From the IMG/VR virus record IMGVR_UViG_3300045902_000169, positions 1 to 24,124 of that record: a stretch of 24,124 bases of DNA. One strand, 5' to 3'. This DNA is from a virus. Positions 20,820 through 24,124 of this stretch are shown here, in pieces. The position numbers and the translations under genes were made by a program. Below the pieces are notes generated by a model. It had not been told where the DNA came from, ran no database searches, and saw nothing but the letters and a program-made list of their open reading frames with translations. Numbering within the stretch: position 1 is the stretch's first letter; each line of letters starts with the position of its first letter.

Positions 20820-21771
20820 TGGTCTGGTCCCCCTGGTCCTCGCCGCCGAAAATCGCCCTTGCCCGCGCCTTGCGTTCGGCGATCGTCCCCGATCCGGTCG
20901 GCGTCGGCGCGGCGCGGGGTCGTGCCGCCGGTCGCGGTCTGCCGTAGTCGTCCGCGATCCGCGACAGGTAGGCGATACTCGACGGATTCGCGCCCTTGAG
21001 CACGGCTTGCTCGATCGCCCAGAGCCACGCCTCGGTCGAGTGGTCGCGCTGCCGGGCGTAGAACTGGTTGCAAAGCCGCTGGTCATGCCAGGCGCGCCAG
21101 AGCCGGTCCCAGACCCGCCGCGCCCCCGGCTCGTCGATCGCGTGCGGTCCCGTCCCGATCTCCAAGGGGTAGTCCTCGTCGGGGTACGGCGGCGTCGCGT
21201 CGTCGCGCGCGGCGCTGCGCTGACTCTCTTCTTGAGTCTCAAAAGTCTTAAAATCTAATACGCGCGCCCGTTCCTCTTTATGCGGTGTCACGCTGGAGTG
21301 TGACACGTTGTCACGCTGGGGCGTGACAGACGATTGTTTATCTGTTTCGTCTTTCCGGGACCGCGCCCGAGCGGCGTAAATGAGCATCTGGGGACTCAAC
21401 AGAGGGAATCCGGTCTTGGGGTCGATCCAGTCGTGGGCGTTCTTATTGATCCAGTAGCCGTTGCCGTCCTCGATGAGAAATCCGGTCGCCTTGAGGTAGT
21501 CGCGGGCCTCGTAAAGCCGCTGTCGCGGGTATCCCCACTCGTTCGCCAGCGCGTTGAAGTTGACCTCGCACGGCTCGGGGTCGGGCCATTCGGCCCCCCT
21601 TCGTTTCGTCTTCGCCACCCCCCACGAATGCTCGATCAGGTAGTAGATGATCGGAAGCTCGTACTTGCCCCACGGCACGCCGAAGATCGCGCGCCCCAGG
21701 TCCACGGCAAGAATCCCGTAGGATTGACCCGCGTTCAGCTTGCCCCACTCCGAGGGTCTCGGTTTCGCCAT
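20812..21771 (-). CDS. Phage replication initiator (O-like)
   Basis: This 319-residue protein has an N-terminal winged-helix domain (about residues 1-105, LNAGQSYGILAVDLGR..., YLIEHSWGV..., VNFNALANEWGYPRQRLYEARDYLKATGFLIED). This matches the pattern of phage O-type and related initiators. The middle (about 130-215) is a low-complexity linker whose DNA contains two 20-bp palindromic repeats. The C-terminal helical domain (about 215-285, ARRVWDRLWRAWHDQ...) may contact a helicase loader. As in lambda, the origin appears to lie inside the gene. The ATG at 21771 is preceded by AAGGTCGAGG; upstream frame to 21807 adds no RBS. Confidence 0.75.
   Translation of the reverse strand: MAKPRPSEWGKLNAGQSYGILAVDLGRAIFGVPWGKYELPIIYYLIEHSWGVAKTKRRGAEWPDPEPCEVNFNALANEWGYPRQRLYEARDYLKATGFLIEDGNGYWINKNAHDWIDPKTGFPLLSPQMLIYAARARSRKDETDKQSSVTPQRDNVSHSSVTPHKEERARVLDFKTFETQEESQRSAARDDATPPYPDEDYPLEIGTGPHAIDEPGARRVWDRLWRAWHDQRLCNQFYARQRDHSTEAWLWAIEQAVLKGANPSSIAYLSRIADDYGRPRPAARPRAAPTPTGSGTIAERKARARAIFGGEDQGDQTNG
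21286..21328. repeat. ori: Two palindromic iterons, putative replication origin
   Basis: TGTCACGCTGGAGTGTGACA (21286-21305) and TGTCACGCTGGGGCGTGACA (21309-21328) are 18/20 identical and repeat every 23 bp. Each has self-complementary arms (TGTCAC/GTGACA). They lie in the linker part of the initiator gene, flanked on one side by an AT-rich stretch (21239-21260, AAAAGTCTTAAAATCTAATA) that stands out in this high-GC DNA. This is the arrangement of initiator-binding sites plus unwinding element. Confidence 0.65.
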
Positions 21772-21819: not shown

Positions 21820-21848
21820 ATCATAACGCTAATTCCACTTGGTAGCAA
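21820..21848 (-). promoter_or_regulatory. Leftward early promoter of the replication operon
   Basis: On the minus strand TTGCTA (21843-21848) and TATGAT (21820-21825) with a 17-bp spacer form a promoter. Transcription should begin near 21813 and run into the initiator at 21771 and the early genes beyond. It overlaps the first CCACTT motif (21835-21840), so the nearby regulator could repress it. Confidence 0.6.
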
Positions 21849-21883
21849 TATCCACTTTGTATAATCCGGCCCACTTGCCACTT
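21835..21883. promoter_or_regulatory. Four CCACTT operator-like motifs between divergent promoters
   Basis: CCACTT occurs at 21835-21840, 21852-21857, 21871-21876 and 21878-21883; the last two are exactly 7 bp apart (CCACTTG twice). They cover the leftward -35/spacer and the rightward -10. Closely spaced short repeats of this type are typical operators of ribbon-helix-helix repressors such as the one encoded at 21959-22213. Confidence 0.55.
21839..21865 (+). promoter_or_regulatory. Rightward promoter of the RHH gene
   Basis: A perfect TATAAT (21860-21865) is found on the plus strand, with TTGGTA (21839-21844) upstream at a short 15-bp spacing. Transcription would start near 21872, inside the CCACTT repeats, and lead into the RHH gene, allowing autoregulation. 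The -35 and its spacing are sub-optimal. Confidence 0.5.
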
Positions 21884-21958
21884 GCCGCCCTCGCGGCTAG
21901 AATCTTTTTGCGGAGCCCATGCCACTGGAGTACACTGAGCCCACGAGTGGAGATGACC

Positions 21959-22305: not shown

Positions 22306-22707
22306 TCAGACCTCCACCGCCCGCAGCGCCGCGAAATACTCGCGCAACACGGCCTCGTTGACCTGAGACCGCATCGCGGGCGTGGTCGGGTGCGCCACGT
22401 CCGAATGCCAGACCGGCTTGCCTCCGCGTGTCCTCGGCGGATCGAGCCGGGCGAGCTTCGAGCCGCAGTAATTGCAGTATTGCGCACGCATGTAATTGTT
22501 CGTGCCACAGACCGGGCACGGGGCGACGTGCCGCCGGTCGGGCATAGCGACGATGTGCCCGGCGCGGGCCGACAGCACCTTGACGCCGTGGACCACGAAG
22601 GCGTCGTCGAACGTGATGCTGGCGTAGGCGGCGACGCGCGGGATGTTCTGGTCGTCGCGGTTCCGGTAGTCCTCGACCAGCGTGATCTGGACCTCGGTGA
22701 TCGTCAC
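22306..22707 (-). CDS. SpoVG-like protein with inserted zinc ribbon
   Basis: This 133-residue protein follows the SpoVG pattern: N-terminal VTITEVQITLVED, AAYASITFDDAFVVHGVKVL and HIVAMPDRR, then DVAHPTTPAMRSQVNEAVLREYF at the end. SpoVG proteins bind nucleic acids and regulate gene expression. Between AMPDRR and DVAHP, where SpoVG has only a short loop, stands an extra segment of about 40 residues with a zinc ribbon (Cys64, Cys67, Cys78, Cys81). The GTG start at 22707 overlaps the preceding stop (GTGA). The longer frame upstream is shadow. Probably a nucleic-acid-binding regulator. Confidence 0.8.
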   Translation of the reverse strand: MTITEVQITLVEDYRNRDDQNIPRVAAYASITFDDAFVVHGVKVLSARAGHIVAMPDRRHVAPCPVCGTNNYMRAQYCNYCGSKLARLDPPRTRGGKPVWHSDVAHPTTPAMRSQVNEAVLREYFAALRAVEV

Positions 22708-22976
22708 GGCGTCACCCCCGTTCCTCCGCAGCGCGGGCACGGGTCGCCCGCGAGGCGGATGTCGCGCGACACATAGCGTCCTCTTTCCTTGATGCACCCT
22801 TTCTTTTCCAGCGCGTTCAGGTGGCCAATCACGCTGTGATGGTTCCGCAGGCCGAACCACGCACCGATCTCTCGCACCGTGGGCGGACGGCGATGCTCGC
22901 CGATGTACGCCCGAATGAAATCCAGGATTTGCCGCTGCCGTGCGGTCAGCTTGGGCTGACACGTCGTCGTGCTCAT
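22704..22976 (-). CDS. LexA-type DNA-binding domain protein with zinc knuckle (90 aa)
   Basis: This 90-residue protein matches the N-terminal winged helix of LexA (LTARQRQILDFIRAYIGEHRRPPTVREIGAWFGLRNHHSVIGHLNALEKKGCI) but has no peptidase domain. It ends with CPRCGGTG (Cys80, Cys83). It cannot self-cleave, so it is probably a plain DNA-binding regulator, perhaps one that competes at SOS-like operators. The ATG at 22976 overlaps the annealing-protein stop (ATGA) and the gene is coupled to SpoVG-like. Confidence 0.75.
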   Translation of the reverse strand: MSTTTCQPKLTARQRQILDFIRAYIGEHRRPPTVREIGAWFGLRNHHSVIGHLNALEKKGCIKERGRYVSRDIRLAGDPCPRCGGTGVTP

Positions 22977-24022
22977 GCGTCGTCGTCTCCGGGTTCGCGT
23001 GTGGTGGTCTCGATGGATGCGTCGTCGTCGTCGATCGCGGTATCGTCGTAGGCCGCATCGCCCTCGATCTCGGCGCGCAACTCGGGATGCTTGCGGTAGA
23101 TCGCCTCCGTGGCTCGACGGGCAAGTTCCTCCTTGTAGCGCGTCATCTCCTGGCGCATCGCCTCGGCGTCGGCGTCGGAGCGGAAATAGACGATCGCGGT
23201 GTAGCGGCCCAGCACGCGATGCTTGCCCGCGACGGACGGATCGACGTGTTCCAGGCGTCCCGTTTCCTGGCACCACTTGAGCAGGTGCCCGTCAGCTTGG
23301 TAGATATTCATGAGTTCGCGGAACCCCTCGGGTCGCTCGCCGTCGCTCCAGTTGGTCCACCAGTCGGCCCACTCGCCGTTACTGGCATCGACGAACGCGC
23401 GGAGCCGCTTGAGGTAGCGTTCCGTGTCCTCGGGGCTGGCGTAGTGTCCCGACGCGAACCCGGAGCCGTTGTCGCTCTTGGGCTGACGCCTGGCGTCGGG
23501 CGCGTCGAGCATTTCCGGGCGCGTGGCGTCGGGGATCGTCTCGACCTCGGTTTCGTCGAGCATGCCCAGGCCGCACGCGGACAAAACCGTCCGCCGCTTC
23601 GCCTTTGTGACGCACTTCATGACGGCGTTGCAGAGCGCGTCGCCCTTAAACCCCGCGACGTTGAGCGCCCCGACATCCTCGACGAAGTGACCGTCAGGGA
23701 ACGTCACGCGGCACTGGACCTCGTAGATGCCGACCTCGGCAAGCAGCCGTCGGTCAATAATTTGCGTGGTCAATCGGCGATTGGCGATCAGTTGATCCGT
23801 CGCGGCCTTTGTGGCGTACAGGGTCAGCTTGCCCTGGAGATTGAGATATTGAAACGGCTGGGTGCGCGGGTCGAGTCCCGCCGCGTCGCAGCGTGCGCGA
23901 TACCAGGCCAGTCGTTCGCCCGGACTGAGCCGGGACAGGTCGCCTTGCACGACGACCTTTTCCAGTGTTGACAGGTCGATTCCGCCGCCGTCTCCGTTCG
24001 TTGTCGCAAGCTCGCTGTTCAT
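22973..24022 (-). CDS. Putative single-strand annealing recombinase (RecT/Sak-like)
   Basis: This 349-residue protein's first part (about residues 15-165) has LSTLEKVVVQGDLSRLSPGERLAWY, GLDPRTQPFQYLNLQGKLTLYATKAATDQL, and KGDALCNAVMKCVTKAKRRTVLSACGLGMLDETEVE. I recall this pattern from phage recombination proteins placed near RecT/Rad52-like (Sak) annealing proteins. The TKAKRR segment is typical. The C-terminal half is a Trp-rich helical region, then a basic helix, ending in an acidic tail (DDDDASIETTTREPGDDD), common in ssDNA-binding partners. ATG at 24022 overlaps the preceding stop (ATGA). The family assignment needs a profile search. Confidence 0.6.
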   Translation of the reverse strand: MNSELATTNGDGGGIDLSTLEKVVVQGDLSRLSPGERLAWYRARCDAAGLDPRTQPFQYLNLQGKLTLYATKAATDQLIANRRLTTQIIDRRLLAEVGIYEVQCRVTFPDGHFVEDVGALNVAGFKGDALCNAVMKCVTKAKRRTVLSACGLGMLDETEVETIPDATRPEMLDAPDARRQPKSDNGSGFASGHYASPEDTERYLKRLRAFVDASNGEWADWWTNWSDGERPEGFRELMNIYQADGHLLKWCQETGRLEHVDPSVAGKHRVLGRYTAIVYFRSDADAEAMRQEMTRYKEELARRATEAIYRKHPELRAEIEGDAAYDDTAIDDDDASIETTTREPGDDDA

Positions 24023-24124
24023 GCAAATTCTCCCATCTGTTGCGTTCGATAGGTGCGCTCCCATCCTTGCCGTTCGTCGGTCCCGTCGCGCCACCAGTCG
24101 AGCAGCGCGTCGTATTCGGCGGTC
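24019..24124 (-). CDS. 3' end of an unidentified gene (partial)
   Basis: The C-terminal 34 residues of a protein run off the right edge. They end ...LLDWWRDGTDERQGWERTYRTQQMGEFA and the stop overlaps the start of the annealing-protein gene (ATGA). A nuclease or other recombination partner would be expected here, but the fragment is too short to identify. Confidence 0.5.
   Translation of the reverse strand, partial: TAEYDALLDWWRDGTDERQGWERTYRTQQMGEFA

Follow-up and report, generated by a model that had tools for sequence, protein, structure and literature searches.

A probable oriλ-like replication origin marked by TGTCAC palindromes inside a phage initiator gene

The window analysed here, the whole 24,124-base virus record IMGVR_UViG_3300045902_000169, very probably carries an oriλ-like replication origin inside the gene for its own initiator, to which the putative winged-helix protein encoded by this gene would bind. 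We regard this as the best explanation because the region has the layout of oriλ, because selection has acted on its DNA word across reading frames, and because the same word is found at the same place in many initiator genes. An initial annotation of this DNA had proposed a lambda-type origin within the initiator gene; with the layout, the DNA-level selection and the presence of the same word in recognised initiators, it is now the best-supported reading.

Results

The origin candidate centres on two repeats, TGTCACGCTGGAGTGTGACA (21286–21305) and TGTCACGCTGGGGCGTGACA (21309–21328), that are identical at 18 of 20 positions and follow each other with a period of 23 bp. Both are palindromic, with perfect outer 6-bp arms (TGTCAC/GTGACA); when the arms are extended to 8 bp, pairing remains perfect in 21309–21328 and shows one mismatch in 8 in 21286–21305. 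These are the only two TGTCAC-N8-GTGACA palindromes in the whole 24,124-base record. We also used a motif-agnostic test that looks for adjacent 20-mers whose 6-bp arms are complementary and have the same sequence in both. Exactly one such pair was present in the window, and none was found in any of 300 dinucleotide-preserving shuffles.

The iterons occupy codons 148–161 of the 319-residue initiator ORF on the minus strand (gene offsets 443 and 466; Table 1), a stretch that was modelled with a pLDDT below 50 and is thus linker-like. A period of 23 bp does not divide by three, so each copy falls in its own frame and yields its own peptide (SVTPQRD and VSHSSVT). We held the peptide fixed and drew synonymous codons according to the usage of the window; under these conditions, the probability of obtaining all four half-sites was 5.8e-7. 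The codons that are forced by the half-sites include rare ones, namely TCA (2% of its set), TCT (6.5%), ACA (7%) and CGT (8%). Given this probability with a fixed peptide, and two copies in different frames, we conclude that selection acted on the DNA word and not on the peptide.

At 15% GC, the 20-mer at 21241–21260 is the minimum for this length both in the window and in the gene, and the 25-, 30- and 40-mer minima of the window fall at the same place. The initial annotation had described two self-complementary 20-bp iterons with this identity and period, located in linker-coding DNA beside an A/T-rich tract unusual for this DNA. Direct sequence comparison bears out the repeats, the poorly modelled stretch agrees with a linker, and the tract is confirmed as the GC minimum of the window. 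The cumulative GC-skew minimum also falls near the iterons, at 22375; we set it aside as evidence for an origin because nearly all genes of this fragmentary record share one strand, so that skew is confounded by gene direction.

Table 1 Features of the origin candidate and of the surrounding genes in the window.
Feature	Position	Strand	Remarks
Iteron 1 (first on coding strand), TGTCACGCCCCAGCGTGACA	21309–21328	-	Perfect 8-bp arms
Iteron 2, TGTCACACTCCAGCGTGACA	21286–21305	-	23 bp after iteron 1, in a different reading frame
A/T-rich tract, candidate DNA-unwinding element	21241–21260	.	Begins some 25 nt downstream (3') of the iterons, coding strand
Putative replication initiator, 319 aa	20812–21771	-	ORF; predicted N-terminal winged helix (about 72–108), disordered linker, C-terminal helices
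Next gene, 192 aa	20241–20819	-	Start overlaps end of initiator gene; helicase-loader position
SpoVG-family protein	22309–22659	-	Pfam E 1e-16
LexA-type DNA-binding domain (wHTH) gene	22707–23000	-	Pfam E 3e-18; adjoins early region
Possible single-strand annealing protein	22973–24094	-	Weak Pfam Rad52_Rad22 match, E 0.009, below cut-off

As a control, we ran the same script on gene O of phage lambda (NC_001416) with its annotated iterons. These occupy codons 116–143 in mixed frames, and the lowest-GC 20-mer of the gene lies 3' of iteron 4. The two regions share their arrangement: palindromic iterons lie in mixed frames in the linker-coding part of an initiator gene, and the lowest-GC 20-mer of that gene, at 15% GC in both, follows on the 3' side of the coding strand at a distance of 25 nt in the window and 13 nt in lambda. 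The minimal oriλ that is competent for unwinding consists of two iterons and the adjacent AT-rich region (Dodson et al. 1986, as cited in PMC7466680). The initial annotation had taken the palindromic nature of the repeats as a departure from lambda. This was mistaken, since the lambda iterons are themselves imperfect inverted repeats that are bound by O dimers (PMC7466680). The window does differ from lambda in having two iterons rather than four, in its word (TGTCAC-N8-GTGACA as opposed to TCCCTC...GAGGGA) and in iteron spacing (23 bp, compared with 20–24 in lambda); its initiator has no detectable similarity to O-like families, and a P gene is not recognisable.

The window initiator produced no sequence match in Pfam, PHROG or the PDB and none by profile comparison, and no relative was found in the viral contigs or phage records that we searched; only initiators unrelated to it have the word in common with it. 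By sequence it falls outside HTH_36 (PF13730) and the O-like PHROG families, and a hidden Markov model of 14 HTH_36-type initiators, built with the window left out, did not recognise it. Two 22-bit matches among 392 genomes of one phylum were at chance level. A model that matched the protein at 2e-8 was discounted because the protein had been part of that model; the match was lost without it.

A first single-sequence fold of the protein was poor. AlphaFold, in an aligned run, placed helices at residues 72–79 and 83–96 and strands at 99–101 and 106–108, with a pLDDT of about 80 in these elements. The structural neighbours of the model are mostly winged helices of the MarR/SlyA type with modest Z scores of up to 7.7; values below 8 can reflect a common arrangement, and confidence in the winged-helix model is modest. 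Together, the models point to a winged helix near residues 72–108. The protein had initially been called an O-like initiator; its sequence does not show homology to O. By analogy, it may work like the O/HTH_36 initiators and yet not be filed as a member of the family.

The record is complete as deposited and is itself probably a fragment. It encodes a terminase, a portal and a major head protein, together with an integrase and a sigma-like gene, and its 20–24 kb end reads as an early region, with a gene for a MazG-like pyrophosphohydrolase beside the initiator, SpoVG-like, LexA-type and candidate annealing-protein genes. The 192-residue gene that follows the initiator showed no family match in Pfam or PHROG and no relative, and could not be recognised as either a loader or a helicase; searching through this gene for relatives of the initiator also returned none. 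Six relatives of the annealing-protein gene (L063–L068) have neither a TGTCAC palindrome nor an initiator that resembles that of the window. The SpoVG match spreads 100 residues over 65 profile positions, with a CxxC...CxxC zinc-ribbon-like segment between, and from its sequence this protein appears to be a SpoVG domain into which a zinc ribbon is inserted. The intergenic stretch upstream of the initiator gene (21834–21890) contains CCACTT four times; it precedes a divergent ORF that weakly matches a TacA1-like antitoxin, and the cluster is possibly an operator.

Two TGTCAC-N8-GTGACA units in tandem occur at 11 loci in the viral contigs that we scanned, compared with none for a control with reversed half-sites. 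A relaxed GTCAC/GTGAC word returned 40 loci and its reversed control 1. At 27 of these 40 loci, an initiator ORF contains the word or directly precedes it; these ORFs were identified as HTH_36 (Pfam), as PHROG 'replication initiation O-like', 'replication initiation protein' or 'replisome organizer', or as DnaD-like; the lone control locus is not an initiator. Several loci are closely related, so that independent cases are fewer, about 14 groups by our reading, and most of the enrichment comes from scans that were chosen for the motif. Among genome contigs, those of Leptotrichia, Methylobacterium, Nocardioides and Schlesneria carry the word within an HTH_36 gene or next to one. Of the named phages, Vibrio phages D160 and 1.042.O have it as well, and 1.211.A has several half-sites. 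The genome scan matched 48 loci, of which about 30 come from one Prevotella metagenome-assembled genome (MAG) and were left out as support.

In that MAG, RUG759, palindromes of the form TGTCACGTT...CGTGACA are arrayed on about 30 contigs (L016, L018–L024, L030 and others), and the arrays that we examined (L016, L023 and L030) are non-coding and not in an initiator gene. Two loci from rumen Lachnospiraceae/Bacillota MAGs (L028 and L033) have tandem repeats with GGGGACGGTTCT...TGTCACC that were matched by the same pattern and are not linked to an initiator.

The TGTCAC-bearing initiators of the HTH_36/O-like type (for example L004, L011, L048, L152, L169 and Vibrio phage D160) have the same half-site as the window, mostly with an N8 spacer, in arrays of period 20–24 just after the winged helix, and their A/T-rich side is usually 3', as it is in the window. 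Unlike the window protein, these initiators have a match to Pfam HTH_36 or to a PHROG O-like profile. A second group (L010, L151, L155, L162 and L179) likewise carries tandem GTCAC/GTGAC palindromes in the linker. It comprises PHROG 2509/9474 'replication initiation protein' and 5968 'replisome organizer', which have other N-terminal families and no detectable relation to the window protein. Other phages have intragenic repeats of different words at the same place: Pseudomonas MD8 (TGCACC), Stenotrophomonas BUCT708 (TATGCC), Salmonella S135 (TGTGCC) and Pseudomonas phiPSA1 (GTCCGC). The window iterons share the features of the TGTCAC class, with at least two units, a period of 20–24 and a position just after the N-terminal domain. 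The suggestion that they might show a new iteron type therefore needs revision, as their word is no one-off and belongs to a class that recurs across phage initiators. We found no description of this class in the open-access literature searched, a scope that took in few subscription papers.

The reading frame of the word varies among the array-bearing genes, with frames 0 and 2 in use. In 25 such genes, many of them close relatives, the lowest GC content within 100 nt was on the 3' side in 20 and tied in 3. At three loci, L075 (Schlesneria) and L005 and L009 (viral), a short winged-helix ORF stops just before the TGTCAC array; the array lies past the stop codon and thus does not code for the winged-helix protein. 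We also sampled 30 O-like genes blind to the motif and examined the 360 nt after the winged helix for hexamer clusters. A significant cluster was present in 13 of them and in none of 141 control stretches. Most of these clusters are made of other words, and TGTCAC is one class among many.

The palindromes could instead act in transcription, with a repressor or the encoded protein itself using them as an operator or for autoregulation. Each repeat is a classic dimer-type palindrome, a gene for a LexA-type wHTH lies nearby, and repression is common among winged-helix proteins. We consider this role improbable: the sites are found about 445 nt into the gene and not at a promoter, they adjoin the most A/T-rich 20-mer of the window, and at other loci the word keeps its place immediately 3' of the wHTH part irrespective of the genes around it, even past a stop codon (L005 and L075). 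Still less probable, and in our view very unlikely, is a function as RNA hairpins for attenuation or translational control in the initiator mRNA. The 63-nt RNA folds as two hairpins (-23.3 kcal/mol, z -5.5), but such folding is expected of any pair of palindromes. Across 33 distinct units, the outermost inner position pairs at a frequency of 0.70 and the others at 0.21–0.36, which is near chance, and a dimer site with a free spacer therefore fits better than a hairpin. It is scarcely credible that the repeats were selected as a VT/SVTP linker peptide with DNA similarity as a by-product: VTP, GDT and ERD motifs do occur in many array-bearing proteins, but the two copies differ in frame and peptide, the half-sites are highly improbable given the peptide, other genes use frames 0 and 2 (frame 1 would place a TGA in frame), and the array is untranslated in L075 and L005.

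Discussion

In the intragenic origin that we propose, a dimer of the encoded protein would contact the two TGTCAC-N8-GTGACA iterons, which sit inside the DNA that codes for the protein's own linker, by way of the N-terminal winged helix. The resulting nucleoprotein complex would melt the A/T-rich tract, some 25 bp distant, and the replicative helicase would be brought in by the C-terminal part of the protein, directly or via a loader protein.

TGTCAC-N8-GTGACA may in addition serve different phages as a common origin word. Phages from at least four bacterial phyla, with initiators that lack detectable sequence similarity, would then keep or repeatedly re-evolve the half-site in the linker DNA of the initiator, either by one ancient specificity of the winged helix or by convergence under a common constraint. 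We offer this broader proposal tentatively, as possible rather than probable. The recurrence of one iteron word in dissimilar initiators across phyla may surprise specialists, and with TGTCAC found across phyla and initiator families, the cause of this recurrence becomes directly testable.

In the window, a likely origin and its initiator were located by an intragenic DNA word alone, and no family model recognises the initiator. As repeat clusters also mark a part of the O-like genes sampled blind to the motif and are absent from control stretches, intragenic iterons could help to find initiators and origins, at the level of sequence, in phages that lack annotation.
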